A DNA stretch of 33,840 bases from Azoarcus taiwanensis (GTDB lineage Bacteria; Pseudomonadota; Gammaproteobacteria; Burkholderiales; Rhodocyclaceae): assembly GCF_012910885.1 (NCBI RefSeq), contig NZ_WTVM01000031.1:1-33840 (forward strand). Direction: 5' to 3'. Made by a program: the position numbers and the translations under genes. Below the pieces are notes generated by a model, which did no database searches, was not told the origin of the DNA, and was given only the letters and a program-made list of their open reading frames with translations. Shown here piece by piece: positions 22,502 through 31,789 of the stretch. How positions within the stretch are numbered: the stretch's first letter is position 1; the number at the start of each line of letters is the position of its first letter.

Positions 22502-22921
22502 TCAGGGCGTACGCTCGAATACCGGTTCACCATCGCGGAGGCGAAAGGCACCGATCCGTTCGCCCGGTGGCTCGCCGGTGGGGTTGTTCCAGTCCTGCAC
22601 AAGGCACTGCTCAGTGCTCGCAAGATACCAGCGGGCACCCTGCCTCAACGCCCACATTCGATAGCCGGCGTCGAAGACCTCGATCTCGGTCAACACCTTG
22701 CCATCCGGGTGGATACGAACCTTTCGCTGGCAGTTGGGCAGTCTGGAAGCGATGACGTACTGATCCACCTCCGACGTCCAGAAATACGGCTGCTCGCGGA
22801 CCAGGATAAGTGCATGCTGGCTGGTGTCGACGGTATAGGCGGTCGCGCTGTTCTCGCAGCCGACGAGCAGCAGCGCCGTCACAGCGAGCGCGAGCAGTGG
22901 CGCTGTCTGCCTCTTCTTCAT
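22502..22921 (-). CDS. Small predicted lipoprotein, function unknown
   Basis: 139 residues. It begins with a lipoprotein signal peptide: MKKRQTAP, a hydrophobic run [13 protein letters not shown], and the lipobox LLVGC with Cys22. The mature part has no repeat or membrane segment. It looks like a compact beta-rich domain with patterns such as [36 protein letters not shown] and [15 protein letters not shown], and two further cysteines (in PNCQRK and EQCLVQ) that could form a disulfide. Its ATG overlaps the pyrC stop by 4 bp, so the two are co-translated, though a link to pyrimidine synthesis is not implied. It ends just before the rnpB promoter. I do not recognise a named family. Confidence 0.8.
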
Positions 22922-23967
22922 GCGACCGCCCTTGCAAGCAGACGCCAGGCCACCTGCTCGCCGGCGCGCAGAGGCACCAGCGGATCGTCCGCCAGATAAT
23001 CGTAGGCGCACGGAACGTTCCAGGCCTGCCGCTCGAGCGTAATCCGCTCCTGATTGGGTGGCAGGCGGTAGAAGGCCGGACCATTCAGACTGGCAAAGGC
23101 CTCCAGCTTGTCGAGCGCCCCCGCGGCCTCGAACACTTCGGCGTAGAGCTCGATACCGGCGTGCGCGGTATAGCAGCCAGCGCAACCGCAGGCGGCTTCC
23201 TTGGCGCCGCGCGAATGGGGCGCTGAGTCGGTGCCGAGGAAAAACTTCGCATCCCCCGAGGTGGCGGCCTTGACCAGCGCCCTGCGATGGGATTCGCGCT
23301 TGAGGACAGGCAGGCAGTAGTGATGCGGTCGAATGCCGCCGGCGAAAATCGCGTTGCGATTGAGCAGCAGATGATGTGCGGTGATCGTCGCAGCCACGTT
23401 GGGCCCGCTGGCGCGAACGAAGTCGACTGCAGCCGACGTGGTGATGTGCTCGAAGACCACGCGCAGATCCGTAAAACGCCGTACCAACGGCGCCAGAACC
23501 TGTTCGATGAAGACATGCTCGCGGTCGAAGACGTCTACGTCGCCATGGGTCACCTCACCATGGACGCAAAGCACCAGGCCTCGCGCCTGCATGCGCTCGA
23601 GCACCCCATATATGCGCTCGATCGCGGTCACGCCTGCATCCGAATTCGTCGTCGCGCCGGCCGGATAGAGTTTCGCCGCATGTACGACACCGCTGTCGAT
23701 CGCCCGATCAATCTCCTCTGGCGGCATGTTGTCGGTCAGATACAGCGTCATCAACGGATCAAAGGACAGCCCGGAGGGCACGGCTGCGAGAATGCGCTCG
23801 CGGTAGGCCACTGCCTGTGCCGCGGTCGTCACCGGTGGCCGCAGGTTGGGCATGATGATCGCGCGCCCGAAGCGCTCGGCCGTGTGCGGCACGACGGCGG
23901 CAAGCGCCTCGCGGTCTCGTACATGAAGATGCCAGTCGTCCGGCTTGATGAGGGTGATCGATTGCAT
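22918..23967 (-). CDS. pyrC: PyrC, dihydroorotase (class II)
   Basis: Zinc amidohydrolase closing N-carbamoyl-aspartate to dihydroorotate in pyrimidine synthesis. 349 residues from ATG 23967. Metal ligands and catalytic groups stand where expected: HLH (His13, His15) in DDWHLHVRD, carbamylated Lys99 in [11 protein letters not shown], His136 in CVHGEV, His174 in FEHITTSAA, and Asp247 in LGTDSAPH. Substrate-binding RPPVTT follows MPNL. A GTG at 23976 adds three residues (MSL); neither start has a strong ribosome site, and I prefer the ATG. A perfect -10 lies 28 nt upstream. Confidence 0.95.
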
Positions 23968-26802: not shown

Positions 26803-28140
26803 TCACCCAAGCGCGTCGAGCAGCTTCTGGTGGACGCCGCCAAACCCGCCATTGCTCATCACCAGCACGTGGTCGCCCGCTTGCGCCTCCGCGACAACCG
26901 TCCGCACCAACGGCTCGAGGGTGTCGAATACCGACGCCCGCGCGCCCAGTGACGACAGCGCCTGTTCGGCGCTCCACCCCAGCTTGTCCGCAAAGCAGAT
27001 CACACGATCGGCGCCGGCGAGACTTTCGGCAAGACGGTCGCGCATCACGCCAAGTTTCATGGTGTTCGAGCGAGGTTCGAGCACTACGATGATGCGCCCC
27101 TCGGGCGCGCTGCGACGCAACCCTTCGATGGTCAGTGCGAAGGCGGTCGGATGGTGGGCGAAATCGTCGTAGACCGTCACCCCGCGCACCACGCCACGCA
27201 CTTCCATGCGTCGCTTCACGCCGCGGAACGCAGCCAGCGCCTCGAGCGCAAGCAGGGGTGGCACTCCTGCATGGCGTGCGGCTGCAATCGCAGCCAGGGC
27301 ATTGAGACAGTTGTGTTCACCTGGCAGCACCAAGGCAAACTCGCCAAGCACCTCACCGGCAAGCCGACACAGCGCACGACTGCGGTCTCCAGCGAGAGAC
27401 CAGCCATCCGGATCATCGAACCACTCCAACTCGGACCAGCATCCGAGCTCGAGCACGCGTCCAATCGCATCGGCACGCCGGTTCGCGACGATTCGGCCGC
27501 TGCGCGGTACGGTACGCACCAGATGGTGGAACTGTGTCTCGATTGCTGCGAGGTCGGCGAAGATATCCGCGTGATCGAACTCGAGATTGTTGAGAATCAG
27601 TGTGCGGGGACGATAGTGGACGAACTTGGAGCGCTTGTCGCAGAAGGCGGTGTCGTACTCGTCGGCTTCGATGACGAAGAAGGGCGAATCGGTGAGTCGC
27701 GCCGACAGCCCGAAGTTGGCGGGAACGCCGCCGACGAGAAAACCCGGCTTGAGGCCGGCGTACTCGAGAATCCACGCCAGCATCGAGGTGGTCGTAGTCT
27801 TGCCGTGGGTGCCCGCCACTGCCAGCACCCAGCGCGACCCAAGCACCTGCTCCGATAGCCACTGAGGTCCGGAAACATAGGGCAAGCCACGGTCGAGAAT
27901 CTCCTCGAGCAGCGGATTGCCGCGCGAGATCGCATTCCCGACGACGAACAGGTCGGGGGCAAGATCTACTTGCGAAGCGTCGTAGCCGTCGATGAGCCCA
28001 ATGCCCTCGGCCTCAAGCTGAGTGCTCATCGGAGGATAGACGTTGGCATCACAGCCGGTTACCCGGTGTCCGGCCGCTCGCGCGATCAGCGCAATGCCGC
28101 CCATGAAGGTGCCGCAGACGCCGAGAATATGGATGTGCAT
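26803..28140 (-). CDS. mpl: Mpl, murein tripeptide recycling ligase
   Basis: Joins recycled L-Ala-gamma-D-Glu-meso-DAP to UDP-MurNAc, returning murein fragments to lipid II synthesis. 445 residues from ATG 28140. The Mpl-specific N-terminus MHIHILGVCGTFMGG is followed by DANVYPPMST, P-loop [10 protein letters not shown] (110-119), EADEYDTAFCDKRSKFVHY, LEFDHADIF and VYDDFAHHPTAFALT. GGAGG lies 4 nt before the ATG; the TTG one codon upstream is less likely. It converges with dolP across 126 bp (26677-26802), which contain GC-rich inverted repeats but no clear terminator, and diverges from the next gene. Confidence 0.96.
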   Translation of the reverse strand: MHIHILGVCGTFMGGIALIARAAGHRVTGCDANVYPPMSTQLEAEGIGLIDGYDASQVDLAPDLFVVGNAISRGNPLLEEILDRGLPYVSGPQWLSEQVLGSRWVLAVAGTHGKTTTTSMLAWILEYAGLKPGFLVGGVPANFGLSARLTDSPFFVIEADEYDTAFCDKRSKFVHYRPRTLILNNLEFDHADIFADLAAIETQFHHLVRTVPRSGRIVANRRADAIGRVLELGCWSELEWFDDPDGWSLAGDRSRALCRLAGEVLGEFALVLPGEHNCLNALAAIAAARHAGVPPLLALEALAAFRGVKRRMEVRGVVRGVTVYDDFAHHPTAFALTIEGLRRSAPEGRIIVVLEPRSNTMKLGVMRDRLAESLAGADRVICFADKLGWSAEQALSSLGARASVFDTLEPLVRTVVAEAQAGDHVLVMSNGGFGGVHQKLLDALG

Positions 28141-28166
28141 CAAACCTCCGCGTGTAACGCGCCGTG

Positions 28167-28172
28167 TACAAT
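28167..28172 (+). promoter_or_regulatory. Candidate -10 for the nucleotidyltransferase-like gene
   Basis: TACAAT (5 of 6) in the 60-bp divergent gap between mpl and the gene at 28201. Start predicted near 28180, about 20 nt before that ATG. No good -35. Confidence 0.4.
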
Positions 28173-28200
28173 GGGCGGCATTCTACATCGGCCCGAGCAC

Positions 28201-28803
28201 ATGACTTCCCGAGCCAACGCTGCCAGAGCCGGAACCCTCCGGCGCGAGATCGCCGCCCTCGCCGCCCGCATGATTGCGGAGGACGGTATTGCCGATTTCG
28301 GGTTCGCCAAACGCAAGGCCGCACGCCAACTCGGCGTGAGCCTGTCCGAGGCTTTGCCCAACAATGCGGAGATCGAGGCGGAACTGCGAACCTGGCAGTC
28401 ACTCTACCAGGACGAAGAGCAGGCAGAACGACTGCGAGAGATGCGCACCGTCGCCATCGAGGTCATGACCATGCTCGAACCCTTTCGCCCCTACCTCACC
28501 GGCGGCGCGCTCGACGGCACCGCCGGGCGATACTCCGAGGTGGACATCGAGCTTTATCCCGAGAGCACGAAGGAAGTCGAGATCTTTTTCCTCAATCGCG
28601 ATATGGCCTATGAACACCGCGAACCACGACGCCCGGCACCCCATGCACCCGAGGCGATCTTGTGCTTCGACTGGAATGATGTGCCAATACGACTGTCCAT
28701 TTACGAAGGGCGCGCAGAGCGCATCGCTCGCAAGGGATGCGATCGCGCCCGCGTGGCGACCGTCAAGGCCCTGCTGCGTGAGAACGAGACAACAAACGAG
28801 TAA
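28201..28803 (+). CDS. Unknown protein with nucleotidyltransferase-like motif
   Basis: 200 residues, no named family recognised. The N-terminal about 90 residues look all-helical and charged (LRREIAALAARMIAEDG, KRKAARQLGVS, DEEQAERLREMRTVAIEVM). Then YLTGGALDGTAGRYSEVDIELYP (98-120) fits the nucleotidyltransferase-fold pattern hGG-x12-DxE, with Gly101-Gly102 and Asp115/Glu117. Further strands are EVEIFFLNRD, ILCFDWNDVPIRLSIYE. A third acidic residue of the fold is not obvious. The first in-frame ATG after the predicted transcript start is 28201; an ATG at 28171 would add ten residues. It is divergent from mpl and runs 6 bp before the tlpA-like gene, so the two are probably co-transcribed. Fold assignment is inference from one motif. 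Confidence 0.75.
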   Translation: MTSRANAARAGTLRREIAALAARMIAEDGIADFGFAKRKAARQLGVSLSEALPNNAEIEAELRTWQSLYQDEEQAERLREMRTVAIEVMTMLEPFRPYLTGGALDGTAGRYSEVDIELYPESTKEVEIFFLNRDMAYEHREPRRPAPHAPEAILCFDWNDVPIRLSIYEGRAERIARKGCDRARVATVKALLRENETTNE

Positions 28804-28809
28804 GTACAC

Positions 28810-29358
28810 ATGAAGCGAAGTTTTTCGTATCTTCTGATCGCGATCGCCGCCGTCGCCGCCACGTTTGCAGGCTATTACACCAGTACGGCATTGCGCGGAG
28901 ACGCCCCCACCGCGGCCGGTCTTCCACCAGAGGCCGCGGAAACACTGCTCGCAATCACGCTGCCCGATGTTGATGGTCAGCTGCACACGCTCGCCGACTG
29001 GCGCGGCCAGATACTGGTCGTCAATTTCTGGGCGACCTGGTGCCCACCTTGCATCAAGGAAATTCCGGAGTTCTCCGCGGTATCACGACGTCACGCCGAG
29101 AACCCGGTGCAATTCGTCGGCATCAGCATAGACACCGCGGACAACGTTCGTGAATTCAACGAGCGCTTTGATGTGCCCTATCCGTTGCTCATCGGCACCA
29201 GTCAGACGCTTGGCCTGGCGAGCGAGGTGGGCAACACTGCCCGTGCCCTGCCTTTCACGGTCATCATCGACATGAATGGGCAGATTGCCAGTGTCACGCT
29301 CGGCACCTTGAATGAAGAGCAACTCGAGGGCAAAATCCGCTCGCTGCTTCCTTCCTGA
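28810..29358 (+). CDS. TlpA/ResA-like membrane-anchored thioredoxin
   Basis: 182 residues. An uncleaved-looking N-terminal signal anchor ([18 protein letters not shown], 5-22) is followed by a periplasmic thioredoxin fold of the TlpA/AhpC-TSA type. It has [31 protein letters not shown] with redox site WCPPC at 77-81, [14 protein letters not shown], and the cis-proline in ALPFTVIID. The predicted role is thiol-disulfide exchange in the periplasm, for example keeping cytochrome c or copper-site cysteines reduced; the exact partner cannot be told. It starts 6 bp after the preceding stop. Confidence 0.9.
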
Positions 29359-29391
29359 AGCAAATCCGCTTACACCACAACACTGGACAAT

Positions 29392-29420
29392 TTGCAGCCA
29401 ATTGCGTCAAACTTGCAGCC
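29392..29420 (+). repeat. TTGCAGCC direct repeat before aroQ
   Basis: Two exact copies of TTGCAGCC (29392-29399 and 29413-29420) are 21 bp apart, two helical turns, in the 62-bp gap before aroQ. The second touches the ATG. A weak promoter-like pair, TGGACA with TCAAAC at 17 nt, overlaps them. Could be an operator or chance. Confidence 0.35.
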
Positions 29421-29915
29421 ATGAAGCGCTCAAAAAGCAACAAGTCCAGCAGTTCGACACCTCTGCCCACAGCTCGCATTTTGGTTCTGCACGGACCGAA
29501 CCTCAATTTGCTGGGGACGCGCGAGCCCGAGATTTACGGCAGGACCACACTCGCAGACGTCCATTCCGCGATGGAGGCACGAGGTCATGCCGATGGCGTG
29601 CAAGTGGAGTCCTTCCAGAGCAATCACGAGGGGCAACTCATCGACCGGGTGCAGGCCGCGGCGGCGGAAGGCGTCGACTTCATCATCATCAACCCGGCCG
29701 CATACACGCACACCAGCGTCGCCTTGCGCGATGCGCTGGCTGCAGTGGCGATCCCGTTCATCGAGGTGCATCTGTCCAATGTGCACGCGCGGGAGGGCTT
29801 CCGGCATCACTCCTATTTTTCGGATCGCGCCGTGGGCGTGATCTGCGGCCTGGGCGCATACGGCTACATGGCCGCGCTCGAATACGCCCTGACCCGACTG
29901 CGGGAAATGGGCTGA
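29421..29915 (+). CDS. aroQ: AroQ, type II 3-dehydroquinate dehydratase
   Basis: Dehydrates 3-dehydroquinate to 3-dehydroshikimate in the shikimate pathway; the type II enzyme is a dodecamer. 164 residues. It has [21 protein letters not shown] with the catalytic Tyr39 and nearby Arg34, [29 protein letters not shown] (Asn91), and [19 protein letters not shown] with catalytic His117 and Arg124/128. The first 18 residues ([18 protein letters not shown]) are polar and extra relative to the usual start at ILVLHGPN; no better start is seen. It heads the aroQ-accB-accC-prmA group. Confidence 0.95.
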
Positions 29916-29967
29916 CCCCACTATCCACTTGGGCTGCACCCGACCGCCGCCCTGTCCGGAGAACAAG

Positions 29968-30420
29968 ATGGATTTGCGCAAGCTGAAGAAACTGATCGAC
30001 CTCGTCCAGGAGTCCGGTATTTCCGAGCTGGAAGTCACCGAGGGGGAGGAGAAGGTTCGTATCGCCAAATTTCCCGCCGCGGGCGCGATAATGAGCGCGC
30101 CGGCGCCCGTGCCTCAGCCAGCGCCGATCGCCATCGCCGCGAACAACCCCGGCGCAGCAGCACCCGCGGACAAAGATGTCCCCGAGGGCCATGTCGTACG
30201 CTCACCGATGGTCGGCACGTTCTACCGTGCGGCGTCACCGGGAGCCAAGGCGTTTGCCGACGTCGGACAGAAGGTCGCCGTCGGCGAGCGCCTGTGCATC
30301 ATCGAAGCGATGAAACTCATGAACGAAATCGAGTCGGATGTGGAAGGCGTAGTCAAGGCCGTGCTGGTCGAGAACGGCCAGCCGGTCGAGTATGGTCAAC
30401 CGCTGTTCGTCATCGGCTGA
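29968..30420 (+). CDS. accB: AccB, biotin carboxyl carrier protein
   Basis: Carries the biotin of acetyl-CoA carboxylase. 150 residues. The N-terminal [23 protein letters not shown] segment is followed by a proline/alanine-rich flexible linker (about 40-70) and the biotinyl domain with [10 protein letters not shown] (biotinylated Lys116) and [20 protein letters not shown] lies upstream of ATG 29968; an in-frame TTG at 29929 would add 13 residues that do not fit. It lies 7 bp before accC, and AccB is made in stoichiometric excess in E. coli. Confidence 0.97.
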
Positions 30421-30427
30421 TCGCGCC

Positions 30428-31789
30428 ATGTTCGACAAGATCCTCATTGCCAACCGGGGCGAGATCGCGCTGCGCGTGCTGCGTGCCTGCCGCGAACTCG
30501 GCATCCGTACGGTCGCGGTTCATTCGGTCGCGGACACCGAAGCAAAGTACGTCAAGCTCGCCGACGAGTCGGTCTGCATCGGCCCAGCAGCCTCGGCCCA
30601 GAGCTATCTCAACGTGCCCGCTCTCATCGCCGCCGCAGAGGTGACCGACGCAGAAGCCATTCATCCGGGCTATGGCTTTCTCTCGGAGAACGCGGATTTC
30701 GCTGAACGCGTCGAGCAGTCAGGCTTCGTCTTCATCGGCCCCAGGCCGGAGACGATTCGGCTGATGGGCGACAAGGTCAGCGCCAAGGATGCGATGAAAG
30801 CTGCCGGCGTGCCATGCGTGCCCGGATCTGAAGGTGCCTTGCCCGAGGACCCGAAAGAGATCGTGCGGCTCGCGCGCGAGATCGGCTATCCGGTCATCGT
30901 CAAGGCGGCCGGCGGCGGCGGCGGACGCGGGATGCGCGTCGTACACACCGAGGCGGCATTGTCCAACGCGGTCGCCACGACGCAGTCCGAAGCGCTTGCC
31001 GCCTTTGGCAACCCGACGCTGTACATGGAGAAGTATCTCGAGAATCCGCGTCACATCGAGATCCAGGTGCTTGCCGACGAACATGGCAATGCGATTCATC
31101 TTGGCGAGCGCGACTGCTCTATGCAACGCCGGCACCAGAAAGTCATCGAGGAAGCGCCTGCCCCGGGCCTTGACCGCAAGACCATCGATGCCATCGGCCA
31201 GCGCTGCGCAGAGGCCTGCCAACGCATCGGCTACCGCGGCGCCGGCACCTTCGAGTTCCTCTACGAGAACGGCGAATTCTTCTTCATCGAGATGAACACC
31301 CGCGTCCAGGTGGAACACCCGGTGACGGAACTCATCACTGGTGTCGACATCGTTCAGGCCCAGATTCGCATCGCCGCCGGAGAGGCCCTGTGGCTGTCGC
31401 AGCGTGACATCGAGTTTCGTGGGCACGCTGTGGAATGTCGCATCAACGCCGAGGACCCGTTCAAGTTCACACCCTCGCCCGGCCGAATCACGAACTGGCA
31501 CGTCCCCGGCGGCCCCGGCGTTCGGGTCGACTCCCATGTCTACAATGGGTACACCGTCCCGCCTTATTACGACTCCATGATCGGCAAGCTCATCGCCTAC
31601 GGCGACACCCGCGAGCAGGCAATCCGGCGGATGCACATAGCCCTGTCGGAAATGGCCGTGGAAGGCATCAAGACCAATGTGGCCCTGCACCAGGAACTGA
31701 TGCTCGATGGTCGCTTCATGGAAGGCGGCACCAGCATTCACTACCTCGAACACCGACTTGCAGAGCACCACGCAGTCCATCAGGAGTAG
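30428..31789 (+). CDS. accC: AccC, biotin carboxylase
   Basis: ATP-grasp enzyme that carboxylates AccB-biotin from bicarbonate and ATP, the first half of malonyl-CoA synthesis. 453 residues (E. coli 449). It has [32 protein letters not shown], the ATP-binding [12 protein letters not shown] loop (159-170), [31 protein letters not shown] and [17 protein letters not shown] 30428 gives the exact family N-terminus. Confidence 0.98.

Follow-up and report, generated by a model that had tools for sequence, protein, structure and literature searches.

The gene at positions 28201-28803 of the window (the whole stretch of DNA analysed, 33,840 nucleotides) is genuine, and belongs to a family which is common in its class and not peculiar to the Azoarcus taiwanensis genome. 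The C-terminal domain of the product, called here P0001, keeps a predicted nucleotidyltransferase (NTase) fold in which catalytic acids have decayed; fold and decay are well supported. Together with the cell-wall genes that usually adjoin the gene, in many Beta- and Gammaproteobacteria, they point to a so far unstudied regulator and not to a new enzyme. The explanation that we propose, a cytosolic two-domain pseudo-NTase regulator linked to peptidoglycan synthesis, has, taken whole, somewhat less than an even chance of being right. Ligand binding, regulation and a cytosolic place are parts of it that we infer, as is the peptidoglycan role, which is read from the neighbouring genes only. The features discussed are the following.

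28201..28803, strand +: pseudo-nucleotidyltransferase-like gene encoding P0001 (200 aa; open reading frame and translation)
26803..28140, strand -: mpl, the divergent neighbour (Mur ligase domains in Pfam)
28810..29358, strand +: tlpA-like thioredoxin gene, next downstream of the P0001 gene (Redoxin/AhpC-TSA in Pfam)
29421..31789, strand +: aroQ, accB and accC, downstream of tlpA (dehydroquinase II, biotinyl and biotin carboxylase domains in Pfam)
28231..28392, strand +: TetR_N-like helix-turn-helix region, residues 11-64 (hhalign probability 75%; predicted helices)
28489..28776, strand +: putative nucleotidyltransferase-like domain, residues ~97-192, approximate limits (AlphaFold model, PDB fold comparison, profile alignment of residues 82-123)
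28501..28545, strand +: GG-x10-E-x-D, a decayed GSX10DXD motif, residues 101-115 (G101 and G106 invariant in the family)
28690..28692, strand +: R164, at the third-acid position of NTases (position deduced from alignment and from the order of strands in the model, not from a structure)

The gene and its family

The start of P0001 was set to the corresponding Met at which its relatives begin. It lies about 60 bp from the start of mpl, which runs in the opposite direction, and 6 bp separate the end of the gene from the tlpA-like gene. Open reading frames and the Pfam domains of both neighbours confirm the divergence from mpl and the adjacency to the tlpA-like gene, which an earlier note on the same DNA had described. 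Among Mur ligases, the product of 26803..28140 is presumed from its sequence to be Mpl. A simple consensus scan of 28000-29450 revealed no sigma-70-like promoter; the single terminator-like site in the interval falls within tlpA, and is at the level of shuffled sequences.

Positions 447-21497 of the window hold, by eye, a cluster of genes for division and the cell wall (secA, lpxC, ftsZ, ftsA, ftsQ, ddl, murC, murG, ftsW, murD, mraY, murF, murE, ftsI, rsmH), which ends about 5 kb from mpl and the P0001 gene. An open reading frame at 22502-23185 overlaps the end of a pyrC-like gene and features, by eye, an internal lipoprotein-like start; it has no Pfam match at E <= 0.001.

Members of the P0001 family were found in 39 of 41 related genomes, the window genome included, with one match per genome. 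Within Gammaproteobacteria as GTDB defines the class, which takes in Burkholderiales, 176 of 369 genomes have a match. When 398 genomes of the phylum, whose class make-up is not given, were searched with a profile, all 38 matches fell in Gammaproteobacteria (GTDB). A scan of named genomes yielded 56 loci; most carry titles with Azoarcus, Thauera, Aromatoleum, Zoogloea or Rhodocyclaceae. Alignment A1 includes 54 of these 56 loci (two identical proteins were left out), and A2 includes 48 of the 54 (six near-copies left out). For family counts, 207 loci were reduced to 176 unique sequences. Alignment A3 is made by 98 diverse members, proteins shorter than 170 aa or >62% identical to a kept member having been dropped.

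P0001 alone has no significant match in Pfam (best E 0.37, DUF7273), none in NCBIfam, and a best E of 0.51 against PDB chain sequences; the A1 and A3 alignments reach 0.34 and 0.59, respectively, against PDB sequences. Pfam searches over 55 A1 members returned weak single-member matches, and nothing more. Among the Pfam and NCBIfam families listed for the 98 diverse members, only NTase-type models recur meaningfully. In the open-licence literature, within the terms searched, no title or abstract start names the family, which is widespread in the class and, to that extent, undescribed. An origin from plasmids or phages was also considered, and rejected: 72,556 plasmid records contain no match to P0001, and 50,697 phage records none to its relative L088, each search made with that one query.

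A predicted fold with decayed acids

The AlphaFold model of P0001, built from 55 aligned sequences (mean pLDDT 83.6, pTM 0.62), has a predicted pol-beta NTase fold over about residues 73-182. Compared by Foldseek with the PDB, the model has no match at E <= 0.001 (best 9.4e-3), and the top ranks are terminal nucleotidyltransferases, CCA-adding enzymes, poly(A) polymerases and SpoT. The 50 rows listed by VIA-align range from Z 8.1 to 7.2, mostly over residues 70-189; the best (Z 8.1, rmsd 2.8, 91 residues) spans residues 73-169. Values of Z near or under 8 are at the level that the aligner calls commonplace, yet the fold is accepted because the listed rows agree on one superfamily, to which we take them to belong from their recognised titles (three are titled only 'bacterial protein').

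Profiles point the same way. Aligned by hhalign with 21 NTP_transf_2 proteins of related genomes, the C-terminal family profile scores 31.2 (66%), and 60 column shuffles of the same comparison score at most 17.8. Samples in the profile comparisons were 36/36 TetR, 21/25 LysR, 10/10 GntR and 21/30 NTP_transf_2 loci; the nine NTP_transf_2 loci omitted include eight in open frames of ~860-1000 aa. One member, L088, exceeds the Pfam NTP_transf_2 cut-off (21.9 bits, cut-off 21), and 11 of the 98 diverse members touch this model at E <= 1. DUF4269 (PF14091) gives the best E of the NTase-type Pfam families (3.5e-5, residues 76-159 of L204); L204 stays under its curated cut-off (24.6 of 28.9 bits), and P0001 is unmatched. 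The NTase-like core that the earlier note had proposed is borne out by model, PDB ranking and profile score, and we hold the predicted fold of the C-terminal domain to be very probable.

The string GG-x12-D-x-E, which the same note had read as the catalytic motif, is present at residues 101-117 (28501-28551). In the profile alignment, S112-E113-V114-D115 falls opposite the Ser-Asp-x-Asp of NTP_transf_2 proteins. According to the available part of PMC7641770, the MntA motif is GSX10DXD, and D39, D41 and D71 hold two metal ions. The catalytic pair is therefore 113/115 rather than 115/117, and the register first suggested was two residues off.

Neither D115 nor E117 is conserved. Of 59 representatives, 18 have E at position 115, 8 have D, 8 N, 6 H and the remainder others; at position 117, 28 have H, 9 Q, 8 E and 8 D, again with others; ranked by conservation in the 176 unique members, the two positions are 143rd and 102nd of 183. 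Decay of the acids holds under either register. Acidic residues are found at 113 in 117 of the 176 unique members, at 115 in 87 and at 164 in 67, and at all three positions in 3 (L088, L102, L204). The full triad occurs in 3 of 98 representatives chosen by identity alone (under 62% identity), where 8.1 would be expected if the columns varied independently. D-x-D is found at 113/115 in 5 of the 176 members, and the commonest pair is E-x-E (43/176). Where active NTases feature a Dx[DE] pair and a third acid, the window encodes E113, D115 and R164. In contrast to the acids, G101 and G106 are kept in all 176 members. The hG[GS] loop is found in the window as GG, its second position being G or S in 71/176 members and mostly A or P in the others.

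With the full triad in 3/176 members, most of the family, P0001 included, looks catalytically dead. A glycine loop kept and acids lost is the pattern of a pseudo-enzyme, although a few members may, judging from their residues, be active; P0001 itself is probably inactive. Of the two options left by the earlier note, a new enzyme is not supported, because the acids it named are not conserved and the true triad is complete in so few members; the other, a degenerate regulatory nucleotidyltransferase, is supported.

It is quite unlikely that P0001 is an active NTase in which a Glu-x-Asp/Glu pair, together with a near-invariant acid at position 121 or with His117, replaces the classical acids. Position 121 is acidic in 170/176 members, 117 is His in 81/176, P0001 has both E113 and D115, and the frequent acid at 113 and the three complete triads would also fit such an enzyme. 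Position 121, however, lies after the strand and, to our knowledge, at no known metal site; acids at 113, 115 and 164 coincide less often than independence gives, and P0001 carries R164. Moreover, in the available part of PMC7641770, changing DXD to EXE (both Asp to Glu) abolishes target modification by MntA.

Loss of the acids could also denote a decaying gene without function, and in-frame stop codons interrupt two of the 39 matches in related genomes (G016, G020). The other 37 matches are open, and residues A36, A40, P53, G101 and G106 are invariant across the 98 diverse members, which makes this reading extremely improbable.

Among the closest known systems is the minimal nucleotidyltransferase MntA (NTP_transf_2, PF01909; type VII toxin-antitoxin), which shares with P0001 the predicted fold, the glycine loop and the register of the motif; 7 of the 98 members touch the NCBIfam model MntA_antitoxin (best E 3.6e-4). 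In contrast to MntA, P0001 and 171/176 members of the family lack DXD, the family carries an N-terminal HTH-like domain of its own, and its genes adjoin mpl and tlpA, or mrcA, rather than a HEPN toxin. Membership of a HEPN toxin-antitoxin system was rejected, since DXD is missing and the neighbours are, by Pfam, a Mur ligase and a thioredoxin-like protein. NTase folds which are catalytically dead or unproven are found in animals, as in MiD51. The available parts of the sources describe two more, MAB21L1 (PMC4897736) and OASL, with incomplete catalytic residues or no transfer shown. All three are eukaryotic and carry other extra domains, and the likeness is one of principle, not of membership.

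The N-terminal half

According to the earlier note, the N-terminal half matches nothing. This holds for Pfam, which reports TetR_N neither in P0001 nor in 55 close members, nor among the 25 families listed, of 47, for the 98 diverse members. By hhalign it is answered in part, residues 11-64 aligning over 52 columns with 36 TetR_N domains (PF00440; probability 75%, score 27.1). Controls with the same N-terminal profile score 16.3 (LysR), 11.7 (GntR) and at most 14.2 (60 shuffles); TetR and LysR profiles, set against each other, score 22.8. An earlier comparison with 10 TetR sequences gave 48% and a score of 24.4, against 15.3 for 30 shuffles and 12.0 for the reversed profile. Searched by itself, the N-terminal model has no fold match at E <= 0.001 (the best by Foldseek has E 0.9), and the best VIA row (Z 6.0) is a secretion pilotin. 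A TetR chain, 3dpj, comes fourth in the VIA list, where its Z of 5.0 does not rise above the noise; the TetR reading rests on the two profile comparisons.

The region differs from TetR proteins in some respects. Residues 44-54, where the recognition helix is expected, are modelled as a loop by AlphaFold, positions 46-51 are poorly conserved in the 59 representatives, and P53 and N55 are conserved; K37, K39 and N55 are nearly invariant in the 98 members. The C-terminal domain is NTase-like, and the helical ligand and dimer domain of TetR proteins is missing. DNA binding is possible, therefore, but not indicated. P0001 does not pass as an active NTase, as an MntA protein or as a full TetR protein. 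No whole-protein Pfam or NCBIfam model describes the pairing of a TetR-like with a pseudo-NTase domain.

P0001 could be a transcription factor, whose TetR-like domain binds operator DNA and whose NTase-like domain only senses a ligand; its targets would be the operon in which it lies (mrcA or tlpA-aroQ-accBC) or the promoter of the divergent mpl gene. The profile match is in line with this explanation, as is the short distance that separates the gene from the divergent mpl (median 83 bp, 91 loci). The loop in place of a recognition helix, the poor conservation of positions 46-51, the location of the gene after mrcA in the mrcA setting, and the outcome of the promoter scan speak against it, and we consider it unlikely.

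Gene neighbours and the proposed role

The neighbourhood survey points mainly to mrcA. Sixty genomes were picked by hand, among the matches listed, for family spread and long flanks, and are not a random sample. Of the set of genes tested, the closest one upstream is mrcA, in the same orientation, in 54/60, mpl in 2, neither in 4; one of the latter loci (L160) is cut by a contig end. Gaps between mrcA and the family gene, with starts picked by script, have a median of 15 bp, measuring <=50 bp in 41/54 genomes and <=100 bp in 50/54. Downstream genes vary: gltA (16 genomes), maeB (14), priA (12), hemE (5), rpmE (3), tlpA (2), argS (1), none or other (7), the names being presumed from the sequences. 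Operon counts are limited to loci L136-L195, because L077-L135 partly repeat the same genomes.

In one Burkholderiales clade, which includes the window, the gene has moved instead to a place beside mpl and ahead of tlpA-aroQ-accBC. In loci L001-L075, many of which are close kin, mpl is divergent in 75/75 and tlpA is next downstream, on the same strand, in 72/75; the gap between the gene and tlpA has a median of -4 bp (90 loci). On a quick tree of the 98 members, in which 43/95 inner branches are unsupported, mrcA and mpl settings are separated by one change; the mpl clade has a support of 89, and one row in it, L129, has another neighbour. In the window genome mrcA still adjoins pilM, with no gene of the P0001 family there; its product has Transgly, Transpeptidase and PCB_OB domains in Pfam, and we take it to be PBP1a.

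The gene pilM was found in 51/60 of the wide loci, usually on the far side of mrcA. Dependence on type IV pili is not favoured, as G146 and G153 keep the mrcA pair while their PilM matches are weak.

Other settings were noted. At L196:7075-8064 (G634:C1) a GT51 transglycosylase stretch (PF00912, E 1.5e-35), presumably MtgA-like, precedes the gene, and is a third peptidoglycan-gene neighbour. At L076:425-5592, in a betaproteobacterial MAG, genes for a histidine kinase and a sigma-54-type response regulator are followed by the family gene, which faces an ALAD (hemB) gene on the opposite strand.

Several observations argue against a tight link to the cell wall. In G108 and G239, of one genus (L207, L206), the gene is the immediate neighbour of pilM, no PBP1a gene occupies the usual site, and a search for PBP1a found no close match, the best being weak (E 3.5e-45 and 9.1e-45). 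PBP1a-like genes are present in G324, G276, G055, G174 and G179 but reside away from the family gene; the upstream side of the G174 locus ends at a contig end. A distance of 2.8 kb separates mpl from the family gene in G723 and G750, and a gene for an AMP-binding enzyme is interposed in G723. The tightest partner in the Burkholderiales clade is tlpA, not mpl, and since cell-wall genes already abound around mpl, proximity to mpl could be due to chance.

A further exception is the distant member L204 (L204:7029-7637), which is last in a run of Band_7, RtcB, RTC, RlaP and HD genes (Pfam). With DxD and third acid intact, it may be an active form engaged in RNA repair.

The run at L204 and its complete triad, as the many RNA-tailing enzymes among the fold neighbours, would suit a family function related to RNA, the cell-wall neighbours reflecting inherited synteny only. 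L204 sits on a long branch, however, its five genes have no match in any of the 71 other wide loci that were searched, and the pairing with mrcA survives many changes of the downstream gene; such a function is improbable.

In the regulator that we propose, the C-terminal domain would retain a pol-beta NTase fold together with its glycine loop, G101-x4-G106-T-A, which in active relatives holds the phosphates of the nucleotide; at least one metal-binding acid has been lost in nearly all members. With fold and loop kept and an acid lost, the domain should bind a nucleotide, a nucleotide-linked ligand or a partner protein without transfer. The N-terminal domain may descend from a TetR-type helix-turn-helix, and would relay the signal to DNA or to a partner protein. 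From mrcA, upstream in most of the surveyed genomes outside the clade, and mpl, beside the gene within it, we infer an adjustment of peptidoglycan synthesis; a UDP-linked precursor could be an example of the input sensed by proteins of the P0001 type.

PBP1a is a main peptidoglycan synthase, and its known regulators, such as LpoA, work from the periplasm or the outer membrane. A more specific proposal, which we regard as rather unlikely, is that P0001 is a cytosolic partner of PBP1a, in which a decayed NTase and a TetR-derived domain read a nucleotide-linked peptidoglycan precursor and set the output of PBP1a or Mpl. If this were true, the supply of cell-wall units would control the polymerase from inside the cell. 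A conserved and probably cytosolic gene, paired with mrcA across many families of the class, would invite us to ask if the supply of precursors is directly sensed, and its putative ligand-binding fold can be put to the test. Even without a link to the cell wall, the pairing of a TetR-like with a pseudo-NTase domain merits a family name.
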